Shown: piece after piece, positions 8,718 through 55,842 of the stretch
How positions within the stretch are numbered: the stretch's first letter is position 1
How the letters are laid out: the number at the start of each line of letters is the position of its first letter
Position numbers and translations under genes: made by a program
Assembly: GCF_039555335.1 (NCBI RefSeq)
Contig: NC_092628.1
Location: 101,144,647 to 101,208,646 of the forward strand
Direction: 5' to 3'
Length of the DNA stretch: 64,000 nt
Source of the DNA: Amphiura filiformis
Lineage: Eukaryota; Echinodermata; Ophiuroidea; Amphilepidida; Amphiuridae
The notes under the pieces: generated by a model
Databases searched by the model: none
Seen by the model: only the letters and a program-made list of their open reading frames with translations
What the model was told of the DNA's origin: nothing

Positions 8718-11700
8718 ATAGGCAATGCATCAAAACTGGCAACTGGCAAAGTCCGTCCAGCATTATCCGTTAATAAGATGAACATGATATGCCAATGTCA
8801 ACTATGAATATATTACTGCATGTTTTTCAAAGATGCTTTTTGACATCTTGCGTAAATGCATATGCATGCAATGGGCATATAATAGTTCTTGAGGTTTGCT
8901 GATCATTTGCTGCTTGATATTATATCAGAGTACAAAATAGGGTTGCTTGACTTTAACTTTATGAGTAGTCAACACCAAATAGTCATGACTAAGATGACTA
9001 TAATGACTAAAGTAAATTGTTTAATTCTTCCGTGGTGTGTGCTGCGTGTCGAGCATATACAACCGTGAACACAGCAAGTGATAAACAATCACACTGATTG
9101 GATGACCATCAGTCATGACAACAAGATGGCAAATAGAAGAGGAGGAAACCTCCCCTCTTCTACATGATTGCCAATCACTAATGAATACCCATACCACAGA
9201 AGAATTAAAAAATTTACTTTGGTACTCAAAAATGCACAAGTACACATATGTGACCCATCACATCAAAACTGACCACTTTGCAGCTGCCTTCTTTGGTAGA
9301 TAAGTGAGGAAAGAAAATGAGAAAATATAAAGAAAATAAAAAGAAATTTGAGCTTGTTTTGCCTCATAAAACATTTTTACTGTATCTGATTTCAACAAGT
9401 AAAGGTGTCATCTTATAAGCTAAAAAACAGCAGTTTATCCTAGTGTTTAAATCTCCATTTTCATTTCTGAATCAAATTAAAGTGGTTGGTTTTGATGTGA
9501 TGGGTCACATATAAGAATGGATGGTGCAAGTATCACATTATTACTATTTTTCCACACAGGGAGTGTGCATTTCGAATGGGGTTACCTGAATGGGTGACGC
9601 CATTTAAAATCTACACTCCCTGTAAATCCCATAAGCCTTTGCGAGTACACCTGAGATGTCGTCATTTGACGTCACGCCGAATTGCAATGCGCAGGAACGG
9701 TGTTCGCTAAACGATGTATGCATCGGCGCAGATCAGTGTGACATTAAATGACGACATTTGAAGTGTAAAGTGTAAATATATCCGCATTTGCTATTAAAAT
9801 TTCCCTTATGTAAATTTAAGGACGCAATAGATAGTCAACTATCAACTAGGTGACTATGTTGTGACTACAGCTGATAGTCGTAACTATAATTTGGTTCATC
9901 TCAAGTTCGGTAGTGACGTATGTGCGTATTTCCCTCGCCGCAGTATCTAATCGTACGTGTAAAGTTAAACGCCCTGAGTGTACACGCACGCGTACAGGAG
10001 CGGCTTGTGAGCACGCTTGTGGCGCAACGCGAGAGAGCATTGACGTCACTACCAAACTTGAGGTGAACCAAAATGACTACAATAGTCAACTATTAGTCAT
10101 ATCCTTACCTGGTATATGTTCAGTAGATTCATCATTAGATAAGAGATCAGCTAATTCTGCCTCCAATGCATCTGTGTCGATACCACTATCTAATGACACT
10201 GTCTCATCTATGTCTCGGTTACCCTGCGATATTGTGTCATCTATTTCACTGCACATCTCCATCACCTTGTGAGCAACAACAAATTGTAGGGTGTCAATCA
10301 AAATGCTAATATTGAGGGGTCAGTGACACAAAGACGTAACTCCATTTTGGCCATTTTGAGAAAAATGAGTTTAAAGATAATGGTCCACATTGACTTATGC
10401 AGTTAAGTCTATGTTTCACTGGCCATTGATTTCAATGGGGTACTAAATGGAGTTACTTCTATGTGTTTATTGGAAAGTGCTCATGTTTATGAAAATTTTG
10501 TTATATATCAAAATCTCATTTTTCGCTAAAAATGGAGTTACGTCTTTGTGTCACTAACCCCTCGATTATTATATTAATATATACTCTTGGCAATGCACAC
10601 TATACTAGATTCTTAATATCAAGAGTGTTTGCTATTAAATCTGACATTTAAACATTATTTTGTCCTGAACATACACTTTCAAAATTTATTTTCAAATAGT
10701 CAACTTGTTGAGATAAGGTCCAAAAACTGGGGATGGTGTAGCCCTGATCTGAAAATATCATAATTATATCTGAATCCTGATCGGATTGGAGTTGGACCAA
10801 TCTGTGAATCTTGAAATCGGAGGAGATCGGCACTGCTGATCTTGGGCTGGATCGGCCAACATTAGACAAGACTTTAATCTCCCACACAGGGGTGTAGATT
10901 TTAAATGGAGTCACACATTCAAGTAACCCATTCACACTCCCTGTGTGGGAGATTAAGATCATGTTTTTCATAGTAGGTGTCTAGATTTCAACTGGAATAG
11001 CCCATATTGACATAGCTGTAAAGGTAAGTTTTATTTATTTATAACAATAGGCTAGAAAGCCTGGACAAACCCAACAGTGAAAACACTAAATTAAAGGGAT
11101 GCCTAACCTTCAGCAAATTAAAGTTTTGAGAGACACCATATTTTTTGCGTATGAGGATCTGATCCAATTTGCCCTGGTGTTAGTAAAAATATATTTCTGA
11201 GAAACAAGGTGATGGTTTACACGGTTAACTGGCCGGATTGTGGTTCGTCTAAATGAATAGACAAATAATCATTAATTTACACCCCTAGTTGCTTTAACCT
11301 ATTTTATTGTATGCATCTTTTAAAGGTCTTCATCTTGAAATAAGGTTTGCCGACATGTTCCTGTAATTGTGAAGGCAAGCAACACTCTACTGGCGTGATT
11401 GTTAGACGCGGCACGATGGAACAATCGGCCCTCATGAATATGCGAGAATTCACAGCATACAATGCACGGGGATTTTGACTGGTGATACATGGTCTGTAGT
11501 AGTCATCTGACATACCTCTTGTACTTCACTCATAGTCTCATCCACAGACTCTGCAGTCAGCCCAGTATCAGCTAGAGTTTTCTTCAAGGCTGCAGCACCA
11601 GATTTATAGGCTTCCATTGTCTGAAAAGGTAAAATACAAAGAGATGTTATTAATCTTGATACAGTACATGGTGACAGATTCTGTAGAACCCATGTTGAGC

Positions 11701-14700
11701 CACAGCAATGGTTAGAGTGGTGTTTACATAATTGGCTCTCTTTTTCTGGTGAAATCAAAGTGATTAGATTTGACTCAGCATAGCTCTGTGTAACATCATG
11801 GTAGATAGCGTTTAGTGAATGTTATCAGCATTCCTGGTGTCAGCATCACATGCAGAATACAAACAAACATACATCATAAATTGCAGTTTGCAAGTCATCA
11901 TACAAAGGTACGCTATTATACCCTCCATCAGAGACATGCAAACATGGCGGGATCCAGACCCTTTGAGTCTGATCTCTTGGGGTGAAATCTACAGCTTTGA
12001 CTCTGAAGGCGTTAATACTTGCAAGTTGTGACAACAGAATCTGCTAACCAAGTATTGTATACACATTTTATTTTTGCATTCAGAACTTGTTTCTGCAATT
12101 TTGGGGTTTTGGGAAATTGCTCTGGTTGCTTATTTTGTGAAACCTATATCAAACAAGTGAATTTTTAAGAACACCTAAGGGTACATCATTTTAGATAAGG
12201 TAGCTCCATCCAGCACCATGGCAACCTGGCCATAGCTGTGAGCTAGAAGCAATCTTACCATCTGGTCTGTCTCCGCATTCTGTATCCTATCCATCATCTC
12301 TTGTAATGTATCTAACGTGGCTTTTCTTTCTATAGACTTCACACCATGGCAACCTGGCCATAGCTGTCAGCTAGAGTCAATCTTACCATTTGATCTGTCT
12401 CTGCATTCTGTATCCTATCCATCATCTCTTGTAATGTATCTAATGTGGCTTCTTTTCTTTCTATAGACTTCACGCCATGGCAACCTGGCCATAGCTGTGA
12501 TCTAGAGTCAATCTTACCATTTGGTCTCTCTGCATTCTGTATCCTATCCATCATCTCTTGTAATGTATCTAAGGTGGCTTCTTTTCTTTCTATAGACTTC
12601 ACACCATGGCAACCTGGCCATAGCTGTGAGTTAGAGGCAATCTTACCATCTGATCTGTCTCTGCATTCTGTATCCTATCCATCATCTCTTGTAATGTATC
12701 TAATGTGGCTTCTTTTCTTTCTATGGACTTCACACCATGGCAACCTGGCCATAGCTGTGAGTTAGAGGCAATCTTACCATTTGATCTGTCTCTGCATTCT
12801 GTATCCTATCCATCATCTCTTGTAATGTATCTAAGGTAGCTTCTTTTCTTTCTATAGACTTCACACCATGGCAACCTGGCCATAGCTGTGAGTTAGAGGC
12901 AATCTTACCATCTGATCTGTCTCTGCATTCTGTATCCTATCCATCATCTCTTGTAATGTATCTAATGTGGCTTCTTTTCTTTCTATGGACTTCACACCAT
13001 GGCCACCTGGCCATAGCTGTCAGCTAGAGTCAATCTTACCATTTGATCTGTCTCTGCATTCTGTATCCTATCCATCATCTCTTGTAATGTATCTAATGTG
13101 GCTTCTTTTCTTTCTATAGACTTCACGCCATGGCAACCTGGCCATAGCTGTGATCTAGAGTCAATCTTACCATTTGGTCTCTCTGCATTCTGTATCCTAT
13201 CCATCATCTCTTGTAATGTATCTAAGGTGGCTTCTTTTCTTTCTATAGACTTCACACCATGGCAACCTGGCCATAGCTGTGAGTTAGAGGCAATCTTACC
13301 ATCTGATCTGTCTCTGCATTCTGTATCCTATCCATCATCTCTTGTAATGTATCTAATGTGGCTTCTTTTTCTTTCTATGGACTTCACACCATGGCAACCT
13401 GGCCATAGCTGTGAGTTAGAGGCAATCTTACCATTTGATCTGTCTCTGCATTCTGTATCCTATCCATCATCTCTTGTAATGTATCTAAGGTAGCTTCTTT
13501 TCTTTCTATAGACTTCACACCATGGCAACCTGGCCATAGCTGTGATCTAGAGGCAATCTTACCATCTGGTCTGTCTCTGCATTCTGTATCCTATCCATCA
13601 TCTCTTGTAATGTATCTAAGGTGGCTTCTTTTCTTTCTATAGACTTCACACCATGGCAACCTGGCCATAGCTGTGAGTTAGAGGCAATCTTACCATTTGA
13701 TCTGTCTCCGCATTCTGTATCCTATTCATCATCTCTTGTAAATAAATAAATAAATAAATGTAGATATTTATATAGCGCTTTATGCCGTAAACAGCCTCAA
13801 AGCGCTTTACATTTATTCCGCCGTTATTAGAATATGTCAGAACCACGTGTACAAATGGCGCAGGGTTCATCAGTACAACGACTGTGACTACCCCTAACAG
13901 CTTCCCATTCCACCTGGGTGGGGTGAAGCAAGCGAGATAAAGCGCCTTGCCCAAGGGCGCAACACGGTGGCGTGAGGGGGACTCGAACCCACGCACGTAA
14001 AGCAAGCTCTCAGATTATGAGTCCAAGGCCGTAACCACTGAGCCACCGTGCCCTCACCTTGTTAAGTACAGGTTGAGTCAAAAAAAAGTGCAATAAAGCA
14101 AAGAATCAATATTTATGCAAGAAGCAAGTCAAACTTTCCCATTATTGAAAAATTTTATAAATACCACACTCAAAAGTCACCTTCTGTGAAAATATGAAGT
14201 GAATCGCGACTACCGTTTAATTTTTATAAGTCCTTTTGCTGCGATACCCAATTTCGTTATTTGTCCACGCGATAACATGTATTTTGAATGAGAGCACACA
14301 ATGCACGGTAAAGGCATTAGCTCTGAAACTGAGATCAACTTAAAAAAGGTTGATTTTTGCGTTATTTTAATTTCTTTTTTTCTGTTCAAACAAACTTTCT
14401 AACATTACTTTAAGTCCTTCATACCTCACTCGACTTCAACTCCAGTATTTTAATCCCAATATGTCCAACTTACTGGATATTTTGTAATTCACTCCACTTC
14501 AATTTGTGCACATTTTATTTTGACATTTGAAAAAACCCGCCTACAAATTTTTATGTTTTTGATTGAGAATAAACATCTTTAAAGTAAAGGTAAAATGAAA
14601 ATTACAACAAATAATGTTTCTTTTCCTTAATGGGTGCTCCATTTAATTTCAATGCTAATGAGGTTAAGAAAATGGCAGTTGTTCCAAATGTACCTTACAC

Positions 14701-17700
14701 AGAGTGCGCTGACATTCAAATTTTAGATGTCTCTTGGACAAACATTAAAATTGGGTATCGCTATAAAATGTGTCATAAAAACAAAACGGTAAATGCCAAT
14801 TCCTTTATTTCTTCACACAAGGTTGCTGAGGAATATATCATATATAAAATGTTTTCAAACCTAAAAGGTTCAACTCGTTCTTTAATAAAAATTGATTCTT
14901 TTCTCTATTGCACTTTTTTTGACTCACCCTGTATCTAAGGTGGCTTCTTTTCTATCTATTGACTTCACACCATGGCAACCTGGCCATAGCTGTGAGCTAG
15001 AGGCAATCTTACCATTTGATCTGTCTCTGCATTCTGTATCCTATCCATCATCTCTTGTAATGTATCTAAGGTGACTTCTTTTCTTTCTATAGACTTCACA
15101 CCATGGCCACCTGGCCATAGCTGTGAGCTAGAGGCAATCTTACCATTTGATCTGTCTCTGCATTCTGTATCCTATCCATCATCTCTTGTAATGTATCTAA
15201 GGTGACTTCTTTTCTTTCTATAGACTTCACGCCATGGCAACCTGGCCATAGCTGTGATCTAGAGGCAATCTTACCATTTGATCTGTCTCCGCATTCTGTA
15301 TCCTATCCATCATCTCTTGTAATGTATCTAATGTGGCTTCTTTTCTTTCTATGGACTTCACACCATGGCAACCTGGACATAGCTGTGATCTCGAGTCAAT
15401 CTTACCATTTGGTCTGTCTCTGCATTCTGTATCCTATCCATCATCTCTTGTAATGTATCTAAGGTGACTTCTTTTCTTTCTATAGACTTCACACCATGGC
15501 CACCTGGCCATAGCTGTGAGCTAGAGGCAATCTTACCATTTGATCTGTCTCTGCATTCTGTATCCTATCCATCATCTCTTGTAATGTATCTAAGGTGACT
15601 TCTTTTCTTTCTATAGACTTCACGCCATGGCAACCTGGCCATAGCTGTGATCTAGAGGCAATCTTACCATTTGATCTGTCTCCGCATTCTGTATCCTATC
15701 CATCATCTCTTGTAATGTATCTAATGTGGCTTCTTTTCTTTCTATGGACTTCACACCATGGCAACCTGGACATAGCTGTGATCTCGAGTCAATCTTACCA
15801 TTTGATCTGTCTCCGCATTCTGTATCCTATCCATCATCTCTTGTAATGTATCTAAGGTGGCTTCTTTTCTTTCTATAGACTTCACACCATGGCAACCTGG
15901 CCATAGCTGTGAGCTAGAGGCAATCTTACCATTTGGTCTGTCTCTGCATTCTGTATCCTATCCATCATCTCTTGTAATGTATCTAAGGTGGCTTCTTTTC
16001 TTTCTATAGACTTCACGCCATGGCAACCTGGCCATAGCTGTGAGCTAGAGGCAATCTTACCATTTGATCTGTCTCCGCATTCTGTATCATATCCATCATC
16101 TCTTGTAATGTATCTAATGTGGCTTCTTTTCTTTCTATAGACTTCACACCATGGCAACCTGGCCATAGCTGTGAGCTAGAGGCAATCTTACCATTTGGTC
16201 TGTCTCCGCATTCTGTATCCTATCCATCATCTCTTGTAATGTATCTAATGTGGCTTCTTTTCTTTCTATGGACTTCACACCATGGCAACCTGGACATAGC
16301 TGTGATCTCGAGTCAATCTTACCATTTGATCTGTCTCTGCATTCTGTATCCTATCCATCATCTCTTGTAATGTATCTAAGGTGGCTTCTTTTCTTTCTAT
16401 AGACTTCACACCATGGCAACCTGGCCATAGCTGTGAGCTAGAGGCAATCTTATCATTTGGTCTGTCTCTGCATTCTGTATCCTATCCATCATCTCTTGTA
16501 ATGTATCTAAGGTGGCTTCTTTTCTTTCTATGGACTTCACACCATGGTAACCTGGCCATAGCTGTGAGTTAGAAGCAATCTTACCATTTGATCTGTCTCT
16601 GCATTCTGTATCCTATCCATCATCTCTTGTAATGTATCTAACGTGGCTTCTTTTCTTTCTATGGACTTCACATAATGGCAACCTGGCCATAGCTGTGAGC
16701 TAGAGTCAATCTTACCATTTGGTCTGTCTCTGCATTCTGTATCCTATCCATCATCTCTTGTAATGTATCTAAGGTGGCTTCTTTTCTTTCTATAGACTTC
16801 ACATAATGGCAACCTGGCCATAGCTGTGAGCTAGAGTCAATCTTACCATTTGGTCTGTCTCTGCATTCTGTATCCTATCCATCATCTCTTGTAATGTATC
16901 TAACGTGGCTTCTTTTCTTTCTATGGACTTCACATAATGGCAACCTGGCCATAGCTGTGAGCTAGAGTCAATCTTACCATTTGGTCTGTCTCTGCATTCT
17001 GTATCCTATCCATCATCTCTTGTAATGTATCTAAGGTGGCTTCTTTTCTTTCTATAGACTTCTCTGCAAGCTTCTTTCTTCGTAGTGTTGATTTAGCCTT
17101 CATTAAAAACAGCAAAATAAGACAGAGTCATTCACACATAAATGACAGTTCTACAGTCCTACAACCGAGCTTATACCAAAATCTAATACCATACTGGATT
17201 AACATTTATTAAGAACAGACTTAGTTCCCTTCCAAAACAGCCCAGTGAGCATGTCAGCCCATGGCATCATACCTCAGCTGCCACATATCTGGATCTCTGG
17301 ATACGTTGTATTACATAGTTCTGATTTACAATGGTTTCAATATGCGGCCGGATATAAGGGTTTCTCAAACTTATGTCAATTTGTGTCGAAATTTCTTCAC
17401 AATGCGGTAAGCTGTATGTATTGCAGAGTACAACACTATCATATTGCAAATAATTCTCCAGTGTAAATGGCCAGCAGCGACTGCTAAAGTTTGTTCGGCT
17501 TATAATAGGCAAAAATTATTTATTTTTGTTATTGCGCGTGTCAGTACCAAAAAGTGCCAATTGATGCTCGCGTAAATTCACATAAGCGTGTACCAGTCAT
17601 GCATTACGGTGTTGCGTAAGGTTTGCACCCAACTGCATGCACACCATTCTATATCAACTAGAATACACAGTGTTATAAGCCAAACAAACTTTAACGTACA

Positions 17701-20700: not shown

Positions 20701-23700
20701 TTTATTTTTTTATTATTATTTTAATAACAAGCATCGAAGCTACATCGACGGTCGATCCAAAGATCGAACATATTTGTTTCTGGTGCCTTACATGATATGA
20801 GATACGATAGCCCTGCCATAGAGCCTGCCGCTTAGTTTCTATTCTACGATTTGCGCATGATCACCCCCACATATGGTGTTACTATTATAGAAAATTCGAT
20901 TTGTTTTCAGGTAAAACGCAGGCTTTGTTTCCAGTACACTAACTCGAAAAGCAATACACTAATTAGCGGGGCCTTGCTGATTGCCGTGGATATCTTTAAC
21001 TGCATTTTATAAGTAAAGATTTTGAAATCCAAAGTAAAAGTTGAGATATATTCAACTATTTGAGAAATGAATTATACAAACGAACCCGTGTAAAATCCAG
21101 CTGCTGTATCTACAATACAATGTACATTTATCGACTTTCTTTATCTGCGTCAATAATAGAATATGGATTTCAATCGAATTGAATACATGTCTCCATTTTG
21201 AGTTTGTACTACACCTCTGAGTGACAAAGCGATCGATTTCTAGCCAATCAGATACGGCAGGCCTCCTTTTCTTGCGTTCGGTGAAATACCAATCGCCCGT
21301 CGTTCACCAACGGAGTATTAAGTTTATATTTATAACACTGGCTGTTGACACTGTGGAATGTTTGATGACGTAAAATCGATAATATATTTCTACCAGATAT
21401 TATACGTAACATATTATCGATTTTAAGTCATCAAACATTCGTTAGAACTTAAACATTACTGGAAATAGAATGGGACTAGATTAAATAATGTAGATATGTT
21501 ACATCAAATATTATACGTCTAATACTCGGAGTCTGCATACTGCCTAAACCTAAAGAAATATCACCTCACTGTCAACTGAAAGGTCCTTGTAATGATTGTG
21601 TATTTCTCTTAAATATTTTGTCATAAGCCTTTACCTAACTATTTGTGTACACTACATGATTTGTTTCCATGATTTCCAGCCTGCAGTAACCCCGGTCGTC
21701 AATGCAAAACTCATCAAGTATCCAAACCTATAGATGAGTTGACCTCAATGCTTATCAACAAAGGCAAGGGACTGGTATATCGATATGCTTGAGTGAACCC
21801 CATGCATTCATGCAACCCCTACACTGTTCAATAGCCTTATTGTGATGTGGCGGGAGTTTTTAAAACACGAGCCTTGAACAAAATATGATGCACGCCCATA
21901 CTGCCAGGCATTGACGTCAGAAGTCAACTCATCTTTACCTTCAACTTACCTTCAATACCTCCAATACAATGAATAAGCCCAACCTAAAGGTTTGTACACA
22001 ACTTGATTAACACCCCGTGATTTCCAGCCTGCAGTAATCCCGGCGGTAATACAAAACTCAGAAAGTATCTAAACCTACTCACCTTCAATACCTCCAATAC
22101 AATGAATGGTCCTTGTAACGATTGCACATTCCTCTTAAATATTGCACCATAAGCCCAACCTAAAGGTTTGTACACAACTTGATTAACTCCCCATGATATC
22201 CAGCCAGCTGTTACACTGGACTCAAAATCAGTCTGTCTTACTATCTCACCACACCTACAGAAAGGAAAAATACACTTGACTCAAAATCAGTCTGTCTTAC
22301 TATCTCACCACACCTACAGAAACGAAAAATACACTTGACTCAAAATCAGTCTGTCTTACTATCTCACCACACCTACAGAAACGAAAAATACACTTGACTC
22401 AAAATCAGTCTGTCTTACTATCTCACCACACCTACAGAAAGGAAAAATACACTTGACTCAAAATCAGTCTGTCTTACTATCTCACCACACCTACAGAAAG
22501 GAAAAATACACTTGACTCAAAATCAGTCTGTCTTACTATCTCACCACACCTACAGAAACAAAAAATACACTTGACTCAAAATCAGTCTGTCTTACTATCT
22601 CACCACACCTACAGAAACAAAAAATACACTTGACTCAAAATCAGTCTGTCTTACTATCTCACCACACCTACAGAAAGGAAAAATACACTTGACTCAAAAT
22701 CAGTCTGTCTTACTATCTCACCACACCTACAGAAACAAAAAATACACTTGACTCAAAATCAATCTGTCTTACTATCTCACCACACCTACAGAAACGAAAA
22801 ATACACTTGACTCAAAATCAGCCTGTCTTACTATCTCACCACACCTACAGAAAGGAAAAATACATGGTTGCTACTACTTACACTACAGTAACCTTAAACT
22901 GATCCAAACATCAAAAAACCGCAATTCACAAAGCATTGCCGCACAGATATCCCATGTGATGTGATTGCGTCATCATGCGAACTGTCATATGGTGACGAAA
23001 AGCTTGGCCGATCAAGCTACATCCCGTGGCAAGGTAGGCTCATCCACGGGGGTGGCACCCGAGGGGTTGGGGTTTAAAACCGCACCCGAGAAACAAATTT
23101 TCTCTTCTTCTCTCTTTCTTCCTTGCTTCTTTCCTTCCCCCTCGCCAAAAAGCAACTGGGACGTTAGGGCTAATCCTCTTACGAAACAGACACAAAACAA
23201 TTGTTTAAAGTCTCATAATAAATACATGTGTGTATCAAATTCTAAACTAATTATCACTCTACACACATTCTGGCCTGGGTAGCTCCATTGTGAAAGCTGA
23301 GTACTGTATAAGAAGATATTTTTGTACTTCACGCTTTGCTTTCTTTTAAGTGGTTGCAATGCAAATCAAACTTTACCTACTCCCAATTCAAGAAAATGAT
23401 AGCAATAATTTTTTTGGATTAAAAACATATTATCCTGTTTTGCCAAATGAAACATCTAAATCTTAATCTCTTTAAGGTTAAAACTAAAAAGTCAAATTTT
23501 AATATTTGGAAATTAGTCTTTGTACAAACCTTTATGCTTGATTACAATCAAAACATATGAAATACTCATGTTTTAGCCCTTACTTAAAAGAATTGGTGAA
23601 ATATTCAAATTTTACTTTTAAAACCAGTTAGGATATAGCTGTTTCATTTGGCCAAACAGGATAATATTTTTTAATCCAAATTAGTGCTGTAACACTTATA

Positions 23701-27938: not shown

Positions 27939-28408
27939 AGCGGCGACACGGGGGTGCTTAAAGGTGCAACATCAATCAACTCATGTACAATGTGCTTCCC
28001 GTCGTCTCTTATTTTCTTAGAATCGTGATTAGCTTCGAAAAAGATCGCTAGCCACAGCTGTATCTTCTCCGCCACTTGAATATACTATCTCCTCCTCACT
28101 AGTATCTCCCTCTCTTTCCTTTCCATGTTTCTGCAATCTCATAACACTATGCCTCTGTGTACTTGATGTACGCTCCTTCTGCTGTTCTGTTCTAAATGTT
28201 CTGTTCTAAATGTTGATGGCACACTGAAGCACATGGAAATACATTGCTTTTCAATCCCCTTAATTTATATGGATGGAGTAAATCAATGGGGGATCATCAG
28301 GGGTAGCGCTGGCTTCAAAATTTAAGGGGTCCGAGTGATTTTTGTTGGACTCATTCAGCCCTCCAAAAGTCAAATTAAGGGGTCCAGTGGGAATTTTAAG
28401 GGGTCCCA
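27939..28408. other. LINE 5' flank and repeat debris
   Basis: No gene was recognised. Part may be the 5' end of the minus-strand LINE. GGGGTCC-rich tracts appear from ~28310. Confidence 0.4.
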
Positions 28409-32200: not shown

Positions 32201-33115
32201 AAAGCAATAATCATTTTATACAATAACAGTGAAACTTGACCATCAATTGGGCCCTCATTTCACAAATTTTCGACTTTTTCAAACTAAAATTTTACATAAG
32301 AATAGTGCCATGGTCCACCAAATGGCTTCAATTAGGGCTTCATTTTGTAAAAGTTTCTCACTTCTGAGGGGGGCACATCCCCCCTCAGACACCCCCCTGC
32401 GTCGCGCAAGCGCTCCGGGATGTCCGCTTCGCGGCCATACATTGTATTTTTCAAATATCTACTTTGCGCCCCCCGGTCTACGAATTCCTGGATACGCGCC
32501 TGGTGGGGGCAATCGATTTTTGTTAAGCCGGTTTGGAAATTAGTACCGCCGCGCCGCGGAGCCGTTTATTATTGCATGCTCAGGGAAGTGCCACTGCTCA
32601 GTGGAATAAATGCGCGCGAAGCATGCCAAACTATGCTCCCCCCTTTTGGCTTGCCAAATATCCCCCCCTATAATTCACTACCCGGGCCCGGATAATTATT
32701 GCACTGACCCCCGGATTGGGCCTTTTGCTTAATTTGATATTTTTTTTAACCGACTGGTAGAGAGACTATAAATTCATTCGCGACTGGAGCACTTGTGAGC
32801 GCTGTGAAATTAGTAAGGAAATCCCCGAAATTTAAATTTCTGAATTTTTCTGGCTCTGACAAACAAGTAAATTTGTTGGATTTCAAAGGTATTTTGAAAA
32901 TGGAGTGGATATCATGTGATGGTCACGGTAAGATTGTTAAACTGGCATAACACAGAAGTTAATCAATTTATTATGTATGATTCATCAGCATGACATTGAG
33001 ACTTGAGTCACCATTGTGTATTACTGCAAGCTTAACTTAAGCTTACCTCCTTGTTACCCACAACCCGGGCCTACATTTTTGTACAACAGGCTTACAACTT
33101 CTGGTTCTGGTTAGG
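29261..33115. other. non-coding, G/C-tract-rich stretch
   Basis: 30.5-32.7 kb is full of CCCCCTTTT, GGGGGG and GGCCTA-type tracts, with overlapping ORFs on several frames that are composition artefacts. No domain, exon or TIR pair could be supported. A TAGGCCTA-like motif recurs. Confidence 0.45.
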
Positions 33116-39321: not shown

Positions 39322-39798
39322 TCAGGAATCTTGATCACTCTGTTGTGGTGTTTCTAGATGTTTGATGAAACGGCAACACTGTTTGGTCTTGATGACGTTT
39401 CCAAACTTCCTGGTTGCCGTTTGTTGATGAGTTGATCGTAGATCTTGTCTAGTTTGTAAGCCCCCCTCGTCTTTGTTCATGGTGTTCTGCCCCCTACTTC
39501 TTATCCAGATTGCCTTCTTCAGCCAGCGTGTTGTTTTGTCTGCTTCTTGGTCAATGATCTGTGCCTCCTCCCACCCAATTACGTGATTTTTTGCTGCTAC
39601 ATGTTCTGCTATTGCTGATTTATGAATTTCTGATGTTGAGGCTTTTCTTTGAGCCCTAGTAAAGCTTTTTGCACTCACTTTCTCAGTTTCTGTTTTATGT
39701 TCTGACAGTCTTGTACCGAACAAGCGACCAGTTTCACCAATATATGTTTTGGGACAGTTTTGGCACGGTATTTCGTAAATAGCCTCTGCTGTCTGCAA
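39322..39798 (-). pseudogene. GIY-YIG endonuclease domain of the Penelope-like element
   Basis: The frame encodes IYEIPCQNCPKTYIGETGR followed by LSEHK, the GIY-YIG core with its Cys-rich finger. It is out of frame with the RT upstream (the linker near 39800-39960 is broken by a stop and frame change). It ends at HLETPQQSDQDS inside the terminal copy. Confidence 0.88.
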
Positions 39799-39958
39799 TG
39801 GGTCGCGTTTGTCCTTAGGGTGTACAAGTAGGTTTCAGAGTGTGCGGTGGGGTTTGAAACAAGTGGAAAACCCGTGTTTCTTGAAAACCCTGGAAACACG
39901 TTCTGACAATCCCTCAACATAGGGAATGACCACAAAACCTTTGTTCTTTTCTTTACTG

Positions 39959-41351: not shown

Positions 41352-42319
41352 ACATCTAGAAACACCACAACAGAGTGATCAAGATTCCTGATAGGAATTG
41401 AAATATTTCTGAGAAAGTACCAGAATAATTGGATCTGAAAAAGAACCTTTTCTACTTTAATTGAACTATGAACGATCCTGATGAATCTGTTTCAAGAGTC
41501 AAATATTTGCATCGCAAACGTGCGATACAGTGTAGCAATTTGTATCGCAACAATGCTGGTTTGTGTAGCAAACTGTGATGCGATGCCGGCAATCACGGGT
41601 CCTGTAATCATGCATTATAAATACTAAATTGCCACCAATCTTTCACCCGATTTTTCAGTCCAATTTTAACCACAGATAGTCGCGACTATAGTCGTAGTCG
41701 CGACTATTTGCTGCCGACTAGTCGACTAGGAAAAAAGTGATAGTCGCCCAACTGTAGTATTTTACCAAATTTTACACACATTGATATAGGATGCTGGCTA
41801 ATCTCTATCAAAAAAGTGTAAAATTTGTGAATTTTGAAAAGTGGAGTTACAAAGTTAGTTTCATCATTTCAATTTTATTCATAATACACATAAAACAGAT
41901 ATATTGAAAAGAATACATTTAAGGCCAGTCAGGAGGGTTGAGAAGGTACATGACCAGGCTCAAACATCCGCAAGAGGCATATTAAACAACAGGACAATAC
42001 AACACATAAATGCAGTTTATAAAGGAATACATCAATAATATTATATTATAAATTAGAAGTAATATTGCATAAAAAATGTTGACAGGGACCCGCCCCGAAA
42101 CAATTGCACAAAACGATAAAATATGGTCTAAAAGACGTCATTATGATTTAAATCGACCAGTCATGGTCATATTTTGAATAAAAAATTGAGTAAGAACATA
42201 GGATTGCACGTTGACTGAGTGATTTTGAACATTTATCAAAGACCCGTTTCATTGGTTTTTGGCTTTTTTTTTGAAACTAAGGGAAAATGGAACTCAGGTT
42301 ACACTTGTTGGAGCTTGTG

Positions 42320-45560: not shown

Positions 45561-45669
45561 GAAAGACTTGCTATCTGAAGACGGGCACCAAGGAAGGAAG
45601 CAGCAAAGGCAAAAGTTTTTATATTTGTGGTGTTGCACACGATCGGTGCAAATTTATTAAACCAACTCA
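45561..45669 (+). CDS. TTF2-like exon: GRF-type zinc finger
   Basis: The acceptor TTGTTTATAG/GAAAG and donor ACTCA/GTAAGT bound 109 nt. CYLKTGTKEGSSKGKSFY then C-x6-C (CGVAHDRC) and KF give the GRF signature. It enters in phase 1 and leaves in phase 2. Confidence 0.8.
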
Positions 45670-48600
45670 GTAAGTATATAAATAGTCAGACTGGGTATGA
45701 CAAATATTTTATTTATATAACATAATTAACAATAAAGTTGTTTTTATAGTGCCAATATATGCATTATACAATAATAGTTTGGACAAAATTTTATCATATT
45801 TGTTGCCTTATTTATGATCAAGCAAAATGATGCGTGAGATTAAATTTTAATTTCTTTTCAAGTTTTAATATTATTAGTAATTTTTTAGCTTGATTTCAGT
45901 GAAAACTTCATGTTTCTTTATCCTAATGTTCAAGCCTTGAAATAACCAGGCACCCAGGAGCCATTTACCCAATGGTCATAACATTTTGGCTCTTGGTCCA
46001 CACCAAAATCATGTGAAACAGGCTCTACATTTTTTAAAAGAATAGAGCCTGGTAGTTAAAGCGGGATTTGTATTTTATGTGTACAATAAACATATTAGCT
46101 CTTTAAAAATGGCTCCTGGTTCACTAGATAATATGAGACCAGGAGCCACTTTTTCTAAATGTGTGGTTCCTGGTCCAGATCTGCTTATTTTGAGGCTTGC
46201 TGATGTTAGATAGTTAAAAAGGTTAAGTCATAAAAAAAGGAATAGAAATACTGGCACATCGCCAATGTCTGACTCAATTTTGCTTTCACATTATTACTGT
46301 GTAGTGGATATTTGGGCAGTATTAAGTTTTAATTAGAGAATATTAAGGTATTGTTTTTAGCCCCTGGAGTGCATCTATCGTCTCATATAACACGGGCGAC
46401 ATCATCATTTTAAGTAAAACAACGAGGCGAAGCCGAGTTGTTTTACTTAAAATAATGTGCCGCCCGTGTTATATGAGACGATAGATTAGATGCACGACAG
46501 CCGCTAAAAACAATACCTTTATTCTAATTCTTAAACACTTCAATTCAAATAAAAATATCATAGGTATAATAGGCCTAGTTACAAATTTTAATCGTTTGAA
46601 GTAAATCCTACATTTTGCAAGGAATTATACCTAGGATTTAAAATTGATCAGTCCCGTTGTTGCTATGCGCCTCCGATTGGTTCAAATTGCGAGTATGTGT
46701 ATCGCGTCGATGCACACGCGCTGACCCGTGTGATATCGTGTCATATCACGCGGGTAAGAACCAATAAGACATTCTCAAGTGTTTAAGAATGAATTTTAAG
46801 AATACTTTTAGTTTGCCATAGAAACAGGATTAACTACCTTAACAATACAGTTTTTGAATATATCGCCCTGCATTACAAGCAACATGATCAATAAATCTTT
46901 ATAAATAATGAACATAATATTAAGGTAACAAAATTATATATTTTATACAAAGTTATAAAATTTATATATAAAAATATACTCAAAATCTTATGTGCATATT
47001 TTTTGTTACAAAGGAGATAGACAAGGCACATTTCTTCTTTGTGAACGTAAATGACCTGTACGTACAATTGTCTAAAAAGTGTGAACCTTAGTAAAAACAA
47101 TGATCTTCACTTTCTTAAATCCTAAAGAAAGAGATTATACCCAAAGAGTACTGACTCAAAATGCCCTGTGTAATGCTGTGGCAGGCAAATATTGTACCTC
47201 CTGCATTTCTTGGCTGAAGCCCAAAATGGAACAGTAATTTGCGTCTTTAAGTATGAGCATTGCAAAGGTTTGTGCAAACAGTGCTTAGTTTTTGGCACAA
47301 CTTGTTGCATGCAAGATACAAACAACAACATACTTTGAATTGAAATTTGCCAGGCGAATAGCGAAATAATCCTGAGATACACTATTTTGCCTCTATGAGC
47401 AACATGTATACATGGTGGAGTCGGTACTCTTTGGTTCTACCTCATTGGGAGGTACACTATTTGCCCTCCATGAGCGATACACAAACATGCCAGGGTTGGT
47501 ACTCTTTGGTTCTACTTCATTGGTGAACTCGCAATTTATGCCTTTTAGTATCCATAGTCGGTTCTGACTCTAAAACCCTAATTAAATATACAAGCTTGAT
47601 AAACAATGCACATATATATTACTGCAAATTACTTTACCGGTGTATATTTTTGTTTTATCTTTAGTTTACCACCATCTTACTGTCTACAACATGGAGAGAA
47701 TATAGTTGAGCTCCAAGCTTTTGGAATAGCCAGTCAAACTAGAGAGAAGAGGTAAGACTTCATGCACTCTGATTTGGCTTTAAGGAACCAAGGAACAAAG
47801 CAAAAGATCGTTCATGAAAGTTCATCTGTGGTGGTATAAATCATGATTTTGATTTAAACTTTTGATCCAAACACAAGGAATACCATCTGAAAATTCCGAG
47901 GTAGGAATTAATTCCTTGTTTTTGGATCAAAAGTTTAAATCAAAAATCAAAGCAAAAGATTGTTGATGTTCGGTTTCATTGCTGACCTCTCCCTCCCCAT
48001 CTGGAAAATAGGAAATGGGTCAAACCTACACCAGTGTTTTATAATAGAGCATTAGGAGTCTAAGCGTAATCAGCATTTTAACCCCCTCCCTACCTAATTA
48101 AACTAGTTTTGTTCAAAGGACAAAGTTTAAACAATCTTTTGGTTTGTTCCGTAGCTTATAGCTATCTAAAATTTTGATCTAAACCAATTCTGAATTGCCC
48201 GGAATATGAACATTTTTGTACCCGGTTCTGTTTTTTTTGTTCTTCTGTATCAAGTACTGTATAAGCCTGTGATGAATAATGTCAAACCGTGAAATGTGTG
48301 GAAATACAATGTAAAATCACCTCATTTGTTGGCTTGTACACAGTACTATCTTCATGCTGAATGACTTGTTTCTTCTATAAACTAGAAAATGCTAGACATT
48401 TGTTCCTTCAGTGAAGAAAAATGTCACTTGCATTTGATTGAACTAGGTTATTTAACCCCATGAGAACTACCTGCTGATTGGCCAAAAAGAAGTTTTCATT
48501 ATCAATTGGCCCAATCAGCAACATTGTTAGAATAATTTCACCACACAAAAAATTGGGGTGAATTATTTGCAAAGCTCCATTCTGATTGGTGATTAAAGTG

Positions 48601-51282
48601 AAGATATCATGTAATTGACCAATGTTAGATCGGCAGGTAGTGCTCAGGGGGTTAAAACAAAGTTGAGGAACTACATTACATTATTTGAAGCTTATCATAT
48701 CACTTGCATTTTACACTGAGAATGATGAGAATACAACGTTAGATTTAAACTTTGTTCAAATCTAACAATATTAATTATTTTGTTCCTACAGACGCTATTA
48801 CCGATGCAGTCAGTATCGTGATGGTGGCAAAGGATGGTGTGGGCAAGTGGTTATAGGCCCATCAGAGGTAAGGCAATTGAGGGGTCACAAGTTGGTATCT
48901 CAGTCCTACCGATGCAGTCAGTATCGTGATGGTGGCAAAGGATGGTGTGGGCAAGTGGTTATAGGCCCATCAGAGGTAAGGCAATTCAGGGGTCACAAGT
49001 TGGTATCTCAGTCCTACCGATGCAGCCAGTATCGTGATGGTGGCAAAGGATGGTGTGGGCAAGTGGTTATAGGCCCATCAGAGGTAAGGCAATTGAGAGG
49101 TCACAAGTTGGTATCTCAGTCCTACCGGTGCAGCCAGTATCGTGATGGTGGCAAAGGATGGTGTGGGCAAGTGGTTATAGGCCCATCAGAGGTAAGGCAA
49201 TTGAGAGGTCACAAGTTGGTATCTCAGTCCTACCGATGCAGCCAGTATCGTGATGGTGGCAAAGGATGGTGTGGGCAAGTGGTTATAGGCCCATCAGAGG
49301 TAAGGCAATTGATGGGTCACAAGTTGGTATCTCAGTCCTACCGATGCAGTCAGTATCGTGATGGTGGCAAAGGATGGTGTGGGCAAGTGGTTATAGGCCC
49401 ATCAGAGGTAAGGCAATTGAGGGGTCACAAGTTGGTATCTCAGTCCTACCGATGCAGTCAGTATCGTGATGGTGGCAAAGGATGGTGTGGGCAAGTGGTT
49501 ATAGGCCCATCAGAGGTAAGGCAATTCAGGGGTCACAAGTTGGTATCTCAGTCCTACCGATGCAGCCAGTATCGTGATGGTGGCAAAGGATGGTGTGGGC
49601 AAGTGGTTATAGGCCCATCAGAGGTAAGGCAATTGAGAGGTCACAAGTTGGTATCTCAGTCCTACCGGTGCAGCCAGTATCGTGATGGTGGCAAAGGATG
49701 GTGTGGGCAAGTGGTTATAGGCCCATCAGAGGTAAGGCAATTGAGAGGTCACAAGTTGGTATCTCAGTCCTACCGATGCAGCCAGTATCGTGATGGTGGC
49801 AAAGGATGGTGTGGGCAAGTGGTTATAGGCCCATCAGAGGTAAGGCAATTGATGGGTCACAAGTTGGTATCTCAGTCCTACCGATGCAGTCAGTATCGTG
49901 ATGGTGGCAAAGGATGGTGTGGGCAAGTGGTTATAGGCCCATCAGAGGTAAGGCAATTGAGGGGTCACAAGTTGGTATCTCAGTCCTACCGATGCAGTCA
50001 GTATCATGATGGTGGCAAAGGATGGTGTGGGCAAGTGGTTATAGGCCCATCAGAGGTAAGGCAATTAAGGGGTCACAAGTTGGTATCTCAGTCCTACCGA
50101 TGCAGCCAGTATCGTGATGGTGGCAAAGGATGGTGTGGTCAAGTGGTTATAGGCCCATCAGAGGTAAGGCAATTGAGGGGTCACAAGTTGGTATCTCAGT
50201 CCTACCGATGCAGCCAGTATCGTGATGGTGGCAAAGGATGGTGTGGTCAAGTGGTTATAGGCCCATCAGAGGTAAGGCAATTGATGGGTCACAAGTTGGT
50301 ATCTCAGTCCTACCGATGCAGCCAGTATCGTGATGGTGGCAAAGGATGGTGTGGACAAGTGGTTATAGGCCCATCAGAGGTAAGGCAATTAAGGAGTCAC
50401 AAGTTGGTATCTCAGTCCTACCGATGCAGCCAGTATCGTGATGGTGGCAAAGGATGGTGTGGTCAAGTGGTTATAGGCTCATCAGAGGTAAGGCAATTAA
50501 GGGGTCACAAGTTGGTATCTCAGTCCTACCGATGCAGCCAGTATCGTGATGGTGGCAAAGGATGGTGTGGTCAAGTGGGTATAGGCCCATCAGAGGTAAG
50601 GCAATTGAGGGGTCACAAGTTGATATCTCAGTCCTACCGATGCAGCCAGTATCGTGATGGTGGCAAAGGATGGTGTGGTCAAGTGGTTATAGGCCCATCA
50701 GAGGTAAGGCAATTGATGGGTCACAAGTTGGTATCTCAGTCCTACCGATGCAGCCAGTATCGTGATGGTGGCAAAGGATGGTGTGGTCAAGTGGTTATAG
50801 GCCCATCAGAGGTAAGGCAATTAAGGGGTCACAAGTTGATATCTCAGTCCTACCGATGCAGCCAGTATCGTGATGGTGGCAAAGGATGGTGTGGTCAAGT
50901 GGTTATAGGCCCATCAGAGGTAAGGCAATTGAGGGGTCACAAGTTGGTATCTCAGTCCTACCGATGCAGCCAGTATCGTGATGGTGGCAAAGGATGGTGT
51001 GGGCAAGTGGTTATAGGCCCATCAGAGGTAAGGCAATTGAGGGGTCACAAGTTGATATCTCAGTCCTACCGATGCAGCCAGTATCGTGATGGTGGCAAAG
51101 GATGGTGTGGGCAAGTGGTTATAGGCCCATCAGAGGTAAGGCAATTGAGGGGTCACAAGTTGGTATCTCAGTCCTACCGATGCAGCCAGTATCGTGATGG
51201 TGGCAAAGGATGGTGTGGGCAAGTGGTTATAGGCCCATCAGAGGTAAGGCAATTGATGGGTCACAAGTTGATGACTGATTAA
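45561..51282 (+). CDS. TTF2-like GRF zinc-finger gene, partial, with exon array
   Basis: Three exons join in phase: 45561-45669 (KTCYLKTGTKEGSSKGKSFY onwards to KPT), 47665-47751 (LPPSYCLQHGENIVELQ onwards to TREK) and 48792-48867 (RYYRCSQYRDGGKGWCGQ onwards to GPSE). The order matches the N terminus of TTF2, as I recall it: a GRF-type finger, then C-x2-H, then C-x10-C. TTF2 is a SNF2-family ATPase that strips RNA polymerase II from DNA. The helicase part is not seen in the window. After the third exon the frame stays open through 22 further repeat copies to a TAA at 51280-51282. Either the donor at 48868 (or a later identical one) splices to distant exons, or the protein ends in a 36-residue repeat array. 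The start exon is missing. Confidence 0.78.
46345..46518. mobile_element. hairpin MITE in TTF2-like intron
   Basis: AAGGTATTGTTTTTAG and CTAAAAACAATACCTT end the arms. The inner blocks ATCGTCTCATATAACACGGG and its complement form a long stem. Confidence 0.75.
47665..47751 (+). CDS. TTF2-like exon: C-x2-H half of second finger
   Basis: The acceptor TTATCTTTAG/TTTACC and donor AAGAG/GTAAGA bound 87 nt. SYCLQHGENIVELQ supplies the first metal-ligand pair (C-x2-H). Phases match both neighbours. Confidence 0.8.
47838..47952. repeat. ~115-bp imperfect palindrome in TTF2-like intron
   Basis: GATTTAAACTTTTGATCCAA and its complement TTGGATCAAAAGTTTAAATC face each other across a short spacer with AAGGAATACC. 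Confidence 0.75.
48792..48867 (+). CDS. TTF2-like exon: C-x10-C half, parent of the 108-bp array
   Basis: The acceptor TTGTTCCTACAG/ACG and donor GAG/GTAAGG bound 76 nt. It encodes YYRCSQYRDGGKGWCGQVVI and then GPSE. Only this copy has the proper acceptor and the RRYY start, so it is the ancestral exon. Confidence 0.82.
48799..51270 (+). repeat. 23-copy 108-bp array of the TTF2-like exon core
   Basis: The block GGGCAAGTGGTTATAGGCCC recurs every 108 bp from 48841 to 51217 (23 positions). Each unit is 72 nt of exon-like sequence (SYRCSQYR to GPSE), the donor GAG/GTAAGG, and 36 nt of intron origin (VRQLRGHKLVSQ when read through) ending in CTCAG. All 23 copies are in frame with no stop. Units 1-5 recur almost identically as units 6-10 (540-bp higher-order period; variant order LRG, FRG, LRG, LRG, LMG). 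The final donor is followed by GTTGATGACTGATTAATGG, i.e. the original intron. Confidence 0.98.
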
Positions 51283-53341
51283 TGGTTTTTCAATAGGCCA
51301 TTGAAGTGCATCATAAAGTGTTAAGTTTAAAATATTGGAATATACATGTTTAATGTTCAACAAAATGCCCATGGATATTTTTACTGAGAACCTTAGAATT
51401 AAGCAAGTATAAATTTGTCAAATTGTAAAATGGGTCTAAATTAGTTGGAAGTAAGTACAAGATGTGCAATATTTAATCTTTCCCTCCACCATACCCAATA
51501 ATGCTCAAAGAGCACTTAAAGGGAAGCCCTACATACAAAACTAACAAAAAAAACACACTTTAACGTAAACAAGATAAAAAGCCTAACAAAAAGGGAATGG
51601 AATTCGAAGCAACCAGATGCAATCATTGGAGTGCTTTAAGATGGGACAACAGACATTTTCCTCATTCCACAACTTGGGACCTACATTGTAGGTGAAAGAA
51701 ACTTCTTTGACAAAGCGTGAGGTCATTTCATTTTGGGGTCATTCGGGTCATCCAAAGTCAAATCGCTATACATTTTTGCAGGTTCATGAAATTTAGTGGG
51801 AACGGCCACCCTAGCTAGACAAATGTCAAGGTCATTTTGGGGTCATCCAGTGTCAAATCGCCATAGATTGTTGCAGGTTCATCAAATTTTGTGGGAACGA
51901 CCACCGAAATGAGACAAAAATGTCAAGGTCATTTGGGGGTCATTCAGGGTCAAATGCCATAGATTGTTGCAGGTTTTTGAAATTTGGTGGGAACGACCAC
52001 CTTAGCGAGGCAAATTTGTTGAACATTGCGTCCAGCAATACAATTTTGCGTCTGGACCCAAGAATTTGCATCCAGCGGGAGTCTTGGCAAGTTTAGCCTA
52101 AAAAGTGCTAATTTTATGCGCTCTTCACACAAATTTGTTTTACTTTGCACCACAGGGCCCCTTCTCAATTTTAGCTTCAATATGGTAAAAATTTTCGCGC
52201 GCATTTGTATCATAAACTTATTCTGTCGCCAAAAGGTGCTGGATTCACTATACCTCAAGAAATTTTTCCAACCCCACCCATGTCATAAAGAAATCTATGC
52301 CACTATTTAAGAACAAGTCACTAGCAGGGCACACATCTAAATGGCTAATGGTAACATTTAAATGCTACAAGTATTAAACTTACTAGACTATCGTCTTATT
52401 TTTCACATTTATTGTAACATTATTTTCAGAAAAAAGCGACCTGTAAAATTTCTGTCAGACATGTAACTTTTTAGAGTTACACGCCCGACTAGCTAGTGTC
52501 AAAAATTTAAGATCCATCCCTGCAGATATGACAAACTAGACTTTTTCTGAATCCTAATGACTAGAGAAATACTTTGGTAATTTAAAAAGATTGTAAGCAA
52601 TTTTGACATTTGACCCCTGTATGACCTTTTCCCACCATACAAGCTTTCCACTAAGTATATTTTAGTATACTTTTGGTATAATATTCAGGTGACATGTCTA
52701 AAATGCTTTACAACAGGGAAAAAATTTAGTGGCTGGGTACACCATTTGTTTAGATTGACCTTACTAGTATTGGTAACAAAACATCCTGGCGATGGTGAGA
52801 ACTATAATCATTCCTTATTTGACTTATTTTTACATAAGAACAATTTGAGACCATTTTTGTTGAAATCTGAGCATTTTTAGTTTCTGACCACTGTGTGGCT
52901 AAAAAAACTAATCGCCTTCCCAAATTTGACCTTATTGCTTTATACTTAATGTCGCAGGTAGGTCAAACTATACTTTTTCTTGATGAGAGCAATGATTTAA
53001 TTTGCTACTGTAACAAAATTTCGGCAAGTTTGAAATTTTGAACCTTATGTTGACCTTTGATTGACCACCATGTGCTTAGGACCACTTTTTAATTTTTTTG
53101 GAATATCATGAATTTGTTTTGGGACCATGTAAGGAACCTAAAAAAGTTGGTTTGGTTTTATAATTTAGTCCTGGGGATGCAAATGTCTATGGGGTGTTGG
53201 AAAACATTGATAGCATGTGACTTCAGAAATAAGTTGATTTGGAATGTCAAATTTCAGGAAGGATCTATCAAATGATACCAAAAATCTCATCAATTATGAG
53301 GTAAGTTGGGGGGGGGTGGGGTGACAAGGCTGTCAATTGGA
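51283..53341. other. non-coding stretch between the TTF2-like array and the NLR
   Basis: No exon of either gene was recognised. If the TTF2-like gene continues, this is intron. It contains the diverged repeat at 51721-52020. Confidence 0.45.
51721..52020. repeat. diverged ~95-bp tandem repeat, 3 copies
   Basis: GGTCATTTTGGGGTCAT, then CAAATCGCCATAGATTGTTGC-like and GTGGGAACGACCACC blocks occur three times, at about 51721, 51830 and 51925. Confidence 0.75.
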
Positions 53342-55842
53342 TCAAGGATCTTTCATGATCATAGTCATGTTAAACGGTGATTGTTTTCGCCCTGCCAATG
53401 GTAGACCTTTCAAAGCAGCCCATCCTTCAAGGCCAATCAAGGGATTGCTTGTTAGATCAATGGACTTAACCGAGGGCTTGTCTTTTAGGCATTTGGCCAA
53501 AATGCAGGCTGTGTCATCTGTCAAACTAGTAGTGTTAAGAATCAATGTCTCTAAGACTGGAAGTTCTCTGAGAACTTCAACTAGATAATTCATTGAAGTT
53601 ACTGTAAACACATTCATAGAGAGATTTAAGTGTGTCAACCCTTTTGCTCTTTTCAAAATGGAAAACAGTTCCTTCAGATGACTTTCTTTGAGCTCACAGC
53701 CAACAAGACATAATCTGGTAAGTTGGGCAGCAATTGGCCTCAACTTCTTGACAGCATTACCTATTTGGTATAAACCCAACTCTAGAGCATGGAGTTTTTT
53801 AAGATCAGACAGCCATTTGATGATTTCACTTCCACTTTTGCGCTGCCCATGGATATCTATAGTGCCACCTAATATGAGTTGAACTATGGAGCCTCTCAAG
53901 TTTAACAAAAACTTGTTCATGGCTTTATCATCGTACAGAAATCCTCGTAATGTTACAGCGGAAAGGTGTATATTTCCTTGAGTGAACAAATGCAGAAGGT
54001 TTGTGATATCATATCTAGCATTTATCAAATTGTTTTGAAGGTGCAAGGTCTTAAGGTTGGTTAGTTTACTTAATGCCTTGTACATCTGGTTAAGATCAGC
54101 ATTGGTAGTTTGGGGACTTTTGTCTATAATCATTCGACAATGTACAAGGTCTTTTGTGTGTGTCAGAAGTGTTGGAATCCATGGAAGATAGCCAGTTGTA
54201 ATTTGAAGGTATTTAAAGGGGGAAAAGAATCCCTTGTCTGTAGGTGTTGACTTGAAAACTTTCAACAGGTATAAAATGCTGGGTGTGCAGAATGTGTATT
54301 GGTGGGAAACTGTAAGTGAACATTGTACTGCAAAATGGGGAACAAGTGCCAAACATTCCTTATATGATAACTGGCTTTCAAAAATATTTTGCAGGTGAAT
54401 AATTAACTCTAAATAATTGTCTGAAGGTTGTCTTTGAAGATTTTGTACATGATGCTTAATTAAAAATTCTATCACCCTAGGCTCCAATCCACAGCAGAAG
54501 CTCAGTAAATAATCTGAATATGTTACAGTACCATCTGCAGTAATGCCGAAAAATGTATCTAAGTGCTTTGTAAAATCTACCTGATTGTTACCGATACGGA
54601 ACAAATATACAAGATGCACTGCAATACAGAATTCTTGGAATAACGTATGCAAAAATGTTACAGATGAAGTTTTTTTCAGGTTTTTCCTCTTTCGTTCCCT
54701 ACTAATGATCCCCACCTGACATCCTAACCTACACACTTCACTTCCAAAATCCTTTTCACTAAACACAGCTTGGCAAGTAGTAATATGATCAAGATCAGTA
54801 TTAATGCCACGCAAATTCACTTCACCCAGCTTGTTCAACAAATCATGCAGCTCCATTCCAAATTCTTCATTATCTAAGTCTTCATCTGATGCTTCATCTG
54901 ATGAACTTTCCACCCTTCTTTTGCTTTGGAATCTTTTCCAAATGTAATTGATAGTTTTTTGCAACAGTTGGGTTTTTGTATTTGGTAAAGTACAATGGTC
55001 ATCCCAAAATAAACAAATCATCAGAAGCAAAGCTGGTATGCTTGCTAACTTCAAGATATGGGGCTCTTCCTTTAGCTTTTGAATGAGTTTCCTAACTTTT
55101 TCTGTATCTTGTCTGAAAAATTTGCCTATGTACTTAGAAATATTTTGTAATGAAAACCCCTTTAACCTGACTTGGGTGTAGTCCCCAAGATGCTCTCCTA
55201 TGTCACTAATTCTATGAGGTCGAGCTGTGAGGATAACATGACATTGGCGGAGCCTCTTGTTTTGTAGGATCTTAGTGACTTCACTTGACTTATTTTTAAG
55301 TAATCCAGAATGGCACTCATCAAGCCCATCAAATACAAATAAAACATCCTTTGCATTGGAAGTGATGTATGACTTGAGACCTTCCATAGAAACGTGGCTA
55401 TCTTCGGCTAAAATTTGGTCAAATATAAGATCTACTAAACTGGCATTGCTATCTTGTATTTCGTGCATATGGATCATAAATACCAGGGTGAACTTAAAAA
55501 GAGGGGACTCTTTATCATTCAATGCCCATTTGTAAGCAAGGTTTGCAGCTGTGGTACTTTTACCACTTCCTGCATCCCCCAGGAGAAGGACCTTAGTTAC
55601 CCTTTGACCCTGACCTGATTTTAAAGTTACTAAATCCTCATTTCTTTTTAAATCTTTTGATGACCCTGGTGATGGATCATTTCTTACAAGTTCTAGGTCC
55701 ACAAAGATGCTCTCCATTTCTTTGATTTCTTCTGGTATCCATGGTAGAAGTTGTACTTTACCCATTTTGTCCAAGTAAAACTCTCTTAGCTCCTTCTGAC
55801 ATGCTGCTAAATCAAACTTGCCAATTTCCTGTGTATTTTGTG
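53342..55842 (-). CDS. NLR exon 3: NACHT, winged helix and LRRs
   Basis: A single 2501-nt exon from acceptor CTTATTACAG/CACAA to TGA. It encodes everything from AQNTQEIGKFDLAACQ to the C terminus MTMIMKDP. Confidence 0.93.

Follow-up and report, generated by a model that had tools for sequence, protein, structure and literature searches.

A probable mirage-type minisatellite with 23 splice donors in a TTF2-like gene of the brittle star Amphiura filiformis, and two sister arrays in a neighbouring CHMP7-like gene

Results

A TTF2-like gene carries a 108-bp array at its fourth exon

The window, by which we mean the whole 64,000-nt stretch of DNA analysed here, holds a TTF2-like gene model on the plus strand, a 108-bp tandem array with identical splice donors at the fourth exon of that model, and two sister arrays in a neighbouring CHMP7-like gene on the minus strand. 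The TTF2-like features were as follows.

32900..32927, plus strand: exon 1, coding part (MEWISCDGH plus 1 nt), donor ACG/GTAAGA, joining in phase
45561..45669, plus strand: exon 2, GRF zinc finger (Pfam Zn_ribbon_GRF), with canonical acceptor and donor and fitting phases
47665..47751, plus strand: exon 3, first half of a second finger (C-x2-H), phases fitting both neighbours
48792..48867, plus strand: exon 4, completing the second finger (C-x10-C), acceptor TTGTTCCTACAG, donor GAG/GTAAGG
48799..51270, plus strand: 108-bp array of 22.9 copies, made of the end of exon 4 (69 nt) and the start of intron 4 with junction sequence (39 nt)

Exon 1 was sought upstream as the motif M..C..H before a donor; there were two candidates, and the one at 32900 fitted. 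It lies 12.6 kb from exon 2, and its assignment is supported by the GRF score, which rose from 27.3 bits without exon 1 to 32.7 bits with it. The junctions of the four exons are all canonical and the phases all fit, giving a joined reading of 100 residues (MEWISCDGHGKTCYLKTG...GPSE). Pfam Zn_ribbon_GRF matched residues 5-41 of this model (32.7 bits; cutoff 25.9), with the finger adjoining the start methionine, and the solved structures nearest to the protein by sequence were the GRF fingers of NEIL3 (Endonuclease 8-like 3). An earlier reading of the sequence alone had noticed a C-x10-C half-finger and suggested TTF2; both held. Exons 3 and 4 complete a C-x2-H/C-x10-C finger. The model has lysines at residues 16 and 20. 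The GRF finger at the start methionine, the second finger and K16 point to TTF2, and we take the exons in the window, including exon 3 and the second finger, to resemble human TTF2.

In Xenopus, the TTF2 finger is described as residues 1-94 and the POLE2-binding motif as residues 120-125; phosphorylated TRAIP is predicted to be held by K16 and R20 (passages of PMC11623681). The window protein shares with the N-terminal domain of Xenopus and human TTF2 an N-terminal GRF finger, then a second finger, and a lysine at position 16. Unlike Xenopus TTF2, it has K in place of R20, and compared with TTF2 of both species the window carries just the first 100 residues. No SNF2 domain was found in the three plus-strand frames of 51280-64000, and the remainder of the gene lies outside the window or is absent. 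A search for the POLE2-binding motif, with query letters from human TTF2, gave only weak strings, none of them downstream of the 108-bp array. Downstream of the array, the minus strand holds an uninterrupted 854-residue frame (53345-55906) that contains a NACHT domain (4.1e-29) and matches leucine-rich repeats weakly; it is possibly nested in a TTF2 intron.

Tandem Repeats Finder gave period 108, 22.9 copies, 97% matches, 0% indels and a score of 4678 for 48799-51270, comprising 22 complete copies plus a 96-bp one. The 13 variant types are confined to 11 of the 108 columns, and the donor GAG/GTAAGG is identical in 23/23 copies, from the native donor at 48868 to the last at 51244. Exon 4 is the native copy of the repeated exon sequence. 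Read from TCC, the unit consists of 72 exon-like nt (TCC plus 69 nt) followed by a 36-nt GT...AG stretch ending CTCAG, and in this register the sequence-only reading had described it correctly. Copy 1 has TAT where the other copies have TCC, because it follows the true acceptor (48790-48791), and the sequence common to all copies is therefore 69 nt of exon plus 39 nt. That reading was also right that the boundaries are in phase 0 and that any choice of donor keeps the frame, and its array of 23 in-frame copies, each with a donor, is real. The open frame, claimed to exceed 800 codons, is 835 residues from stop to stop (48775-51282), with the stop codon at 51280 just 3' of the array; the remaining five frames contain 23 to 81 stops each.

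Units 1-5 equal units 6-10, a 667-bp exact match at a five-unit shift that we read as a recent block duplication. The 12-nt junction sequence (GTATCTCAGTCC) had only two-mismatch matches outside the array, none of them nearby. Three units folded as RNA no better than expected for shuffled sequence (z = -0.82; 24/100 shuffles equally good), indicating no special structure, and an exact 26-base pattern from the unit had 0 matches in viral and prokaryote contigs and none in phage records. Among Pfam matches in the read-through array, GlfB_C and ketoacyl-synt were rejected as domains since no single stretch passes alone. Zn_ribbon_recom, which passes its cutoff in 13 stretches of the read-through, was rejected as well, the single-copy protein scoring 17.7 to 20.5 bits against a cutoff of 25.3.

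Two further arrays lie at splice junctions of a CHMP7-like gene

On the minus strand we identified two more arrays and the exons that belong to them.

12214..17062, minus strand: 131-bp splice-junction array, 28 copies by pattern search, the unit running from the last 84 nt of an exon through the donor into 47 nt of intron
16978..17097, minus strand: CHMP7/Snf7-like exon (AKSTLRR...AETDQM), native source of the 131-bp array; Pfam Snf7 when joined to the next exon
11516..11620, minus strand: next CHMP7/Snf7-like exon (TMEAYKSGAAALKK...), at which the Snf7 match spans the junction gap-free
22212..22864, minus strand: 59-bp splice-junction array, 11 copies, each joining an acceptor (16 intronic nt, ending CTGTAG) to the 43 nt that open an exon
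22083..22254, minus strand: native exon of the 59-bp array, with the acceptor that the array repeats (CGEIVRQTDFESSVTAGWISWGV...EVLK); its frame stays open in phase between the last acceptor and GTGAGT

When the two CHMP7-like exons were joined, they matched Pfam Snf7 at 3.6e-10 and yeast Snf7 at 1.4e-7, with no residues inserted at the junction. Across the 2061 nt examined, read-through of the 131-bp array ran into 37-39 stops in each frame. Given these stops and the gap-free Snf7 junction, a single copy is expected in the CHMP7-like protein, despite a donor (GTAAGA) that is intact in 27 of the 28 copies defined by pattern and lost in one. Exon-part indels that break the frame occur in copies 20, 21 and 26, and copy 28 has a 3-nt deletion. 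Copy 17 carries an insertion of about 1.2 kb, within which lies a tRNA-Met-like sequence (13966-14052, minus strand). The intron part varied more than the exon part, with 13/47 against 8/84 variable columns.

The 11 copies of the 59-bp array are spaced exactly 59 bp apart, with 11/11 acceptors present, these being pattern matches by construction. The exon at 22083-22254 had no Pfam match; we take it to resemble human CHMP7, which is set apart from other ESCRT-III proteins by an N-terminal winged-helix region. Exon order on the minus strand, together with this likeness, suggests that both arrays lie in one CHMP7-like gene. Just downstream, at about 21950-22035 on the minus strand, a partial second copy of the same exon was read by eye. 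Internally deleted and with a GTAAGT donor of its own, it adds a further exon-boundary duplication to the CHMP7-like gene.

Also on the minus strand of the window are remains of a non-LTR retroelement whose endonuclease and reverse transcriptase domains lie in different frames (25009-27971), and element frames with a sub-threshold GIY-YIG match (39322-41378), presumably from a Penelope-like element.

All high-copy arrays in the window straddle splice junctions

Tandem Repeats Finder detected three arrays in the window with at least 10 copies and a unit of at least 50 bp, and all three straddle coding splice junctions. The unit spans an exon-intron boundary, the hallmark of the mirages described in amphioxus, at the TTF2-like donor, a CHMP7-like donor and a CHMP7-like acceptor. 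With 13 modelled junctions, the probability that a random segment of 108, 131 or 59 bp contains a junction is 0.021, 0.024 and 0.012, respectively (product 6e-6, rising to 1.6e-4 if the number of junctions is tripled); the test was devised after the arrays had been seen, so the values serve as a guide. The low-copy arrays at 7086, 43537, 47374 and 51745 (75 to 180 bp) had no GT[AG]AG motif and lay off the modelled junctions. Concerted evolution was seen in the exact duplication of the five-unit block of the TTF2 array and in variants shared along arrays. One of the three unit lengths (108, 131 and 59 bp) is a multiple of three.

The open frame is weak evidence of coding use

The sequence-only reading held that a fully open array was unlikely to be neutral unless very young. 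This was not confirmed: chance alone would produce openness and a length divisible by three often enough. A stop-free unit whose length is a multiple of three makes each copy automatically open, and the unbroken 835-residue frame is thus weak evidence of coding use. At 29,523 of 61,417 window positions, 39 nt can be read in a given frame without meeting a stop. On the plus strand, the 39 nt after a GTAAG site are open in 27/43 cases; the minus-strand figure, 61/90, includes many copies from the other two arrays, which are not independent. Thirteen random substitutions in the 108-bp array would leave it without a stop with a probability of 0.41. We also rejected donor invariance in this array as a sign of selection, since it has a probability of 0.37 by chance. 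Four of the seven exon variants in the TTF2 array were synonymous, a weak excess (1.7 expected; P = 0.06), as were two of the six variants in its 39-nt part (1.6 expected, from few variants). The sister units of 131 and 59 bp indicate, moreover, that frame is not a condition for such arrays. We read the unbroken TTF2-array frame as a coincidence of unit length, 108 being divisible by three, and the frame itself is the one positive support for in-frame use of the array.

Shared and private variants differ in the exon parts

Over the three arrays, 12/19 exon-part variants were synonymous where 24% were expected (P = 3e-4), and some selection has therefore acted on the exon-part sequence, which counts against the reading that we favour below. 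Pooled substitutions shared by at least two copies were synonymous in ten cases and not in one (expected share 0.24; P = 5e-6), whereas private variants were synonymous in two cases and not in six (Fisher P = 0.006 against shared). As some variants are shared only through duplication of a block of copies, we also collapsed duplicated blocks, which gave 8:1 for shared variants (P = 8e-5 against expectation) and 4:6 for private ones (Fisher P = 0.04). These counts omit 5 of the 28 copies of the 131-bp array (17, 20, 21, 26 and 28), which have the insertion or indels or are incomplete.

Single-copy variants of the TTF2 array occur in copies 12, 15, 16 and 17, with none in copies 1-11 or 18-23. 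In the 59-bp array, single-copy exon variants fall in copies 1 and 2 and in the native copy 11. The exon indels of the 131-bp array sit in the far copies 20, 21, 26 and 28, and substitutions per copy in that array did not rise with distance from the true exon; on these substitution counts we rejected a simple decay of copies with distance from the exon.

The contrast between shared and private variants is consistent with selection acting at the native exon, suggesting that the arrays may have grown from it. On a further reading, coding splice junctions would be preferred birth sites of minisatellites in this genome, and the native exon the source for repeated regrowth. We hold this double proposal only tentatively and consider it rather unlikely as it stands; our initial, already low estimate was reduced slightly because the collapsed test was weaker and the gradient was absent. 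Under the rival account every copy would be directly selected, which is unlikely in the 131-bp array because its unit shifts the frame.

Discussion

Comparison with described arrays

The sequence-only reading knew of no described case of such an array in this family. Our literature search found no report of one in TTF2 itself; the kind, on the other hand, has been described as the mirages of amphioxus. These are minisatellite-like tandem duplications over an exon-intron boundary, on the donor or acceptor side, with AG/GT signals in many copies (passages of PMC3087553 and PMC3902484). The hosts described in those passages are Adh3, the globins BflGb6 and BflGb9, troponin C and PGBD5, all cephalochordate. 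Mirages are reported there not to disturb splicing and to vary in copy number (PMC3087553, PMC3902484), and the mechanism that generates them is called unclear (PMC3087553). In lancelet PGBD5, splice sites carry repeats of 60 bp (2 or 7 copies, according to the assembly) and of 108 bp (3 or 6 copies), part of which was predicted as an exon adding 57 residues (PMC3902484).

The window arrays have both the boundary-spanning unit and the many copies with splice signals that mark amphioxus mirages. In contrast to those mirages, the hosts are TTF2-like and CHMP7-like, and the TTF2 array is open in frame throughout. The copy numbers of the window arrays, 23, 28 and 11, also exceed the 2 to 7 copies given for the globin and PGBD5 mirages in the passages cited.

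The minisatellite of human IFI6 (6-16, G1P3), with a unit of 12 nt, is likewise located at an exon end with a donor in the repeat units. That unit is far shorter than 108 bp. In contrast to the single exit that we favour below, downstream donors are reported to be used: the units supply several splice donors, giving three mRNAs (PMC4526556, citing Turri et al. 1995). In intron gain by AGGT-containing tandem duplication, as in the TTF2 array, duplication over a splice signal creates extra potential sites, and mirages have been proposed as an intermediate in intron gain (PMC3087553). Unlike an intron gained in this way, the 36-nt GT...AG stretch of the TTF2 array is probably too short to be an intron.

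A probable mirage-type minisatellite, likely removed with intron 4

We consider the TTF2 array to be a mirage-type minisatellite that arose from the end of exon 4 and the start of intron 4 and is predicted to be removed with intron 4 (probability roughly 0.85). The array would have grown by tandem duplication and unequal exchange, perhaps with the native exon as repeated source. Splicing would normally exit at the first donor (48868), the array would leave with intron 4, and the protein would keep one copy; the 108-bp array thus probably leaves the protein unchanged. Copy number would be unstable between individuals, and the array is apparently young. A neutral young minisatellite had been the alternative, not the favoured choice, of the sequence-only reading, and we find it the better one. 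Judging from the CHMP7-like arrays, numerous intact sites may persist even though one alone gives the expected protein.

Use of the distal donors would instead yield TTF2 isoforms that gain n x 36 residues, with array length tuning the bridge between TRAIP, TTF2 and pol epsilon. All 23 donors are identical and each keeps the frame, and exon 4 ends at model residue 100, so that units would fall between the Xenopus finger (1-94) and the POLE2 motif (120-125; PMC11623681). K16 is present, with R20 replaced by K at the same number. IFI6 gives a precedent for downstream repeat units as donors (PMC4526556), and the globin paper states that mirage signals could act as cryptic sites (PMC3087553). Yet the amphioxus mirages in the reports cited leave splicing undisturbed, and the CHMP7-like sister arrays are not readable through in frame. 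The search with the human letters gave no POLE2-like motif downstream of the array, and the 39-nt part looks neutral, with 2/6 variants synonymous against 1.6 expected, from few variants. We therefore regard this as improbable. Still less probable, at close to negligible odds, is that the repeats serve as mini-exons, each 36-nt GT...AG stretch being spliced out to leave a protein with 23 x 24 residues. Every full unit does begin this stretch with GT and end it with CTCAG, and both parts of the unit are multiples of three; 36 nt is nevertheless below the 43-nt intron given as spliced in a report on unusually short human introns (PMC4463651). Moreover, the CTCAG site has 9/17 pyrimidines against 12-14 at the gene's own three acceptors, a count matched by 45% of 1070 background AGs.

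Assembly error, either the expansion of a shorter array or the joining of haplotypes, would fit the 667-bp exact repeat, and a globin-gene mirage is reported to have been misassembled in a draft genome (PMC3087553). Against this, copies 12-23 bear several distinct variant combinations and two sister arrays have the same architecture. The copy number may be off, but the array itself is not, and we rate an artefact as a slim prospect, a little below the use of distal donors.

Implications

For genome annotation, an open array of this kind is a hazard: a gene caller could turn it into a false insert of 800 residues, much as with the 57 residues of lancelet PGBD5 (PMC3902484). Within 40 kb, two neighbouring genes carry three splice-junction arrays, a pattern and not a one-gene curiosity, and this is more interesting than the in-frame reading of the TTF2 array. 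If the native exon is indeed the source of regrowth, the copies hold a record of the exon's past alleles. Arrays of 11 to 28 copies whose putative source exon is under selection allow direct tests of where such arrays start, how they grow and how the spliceosome chooses among 23 identical donors.
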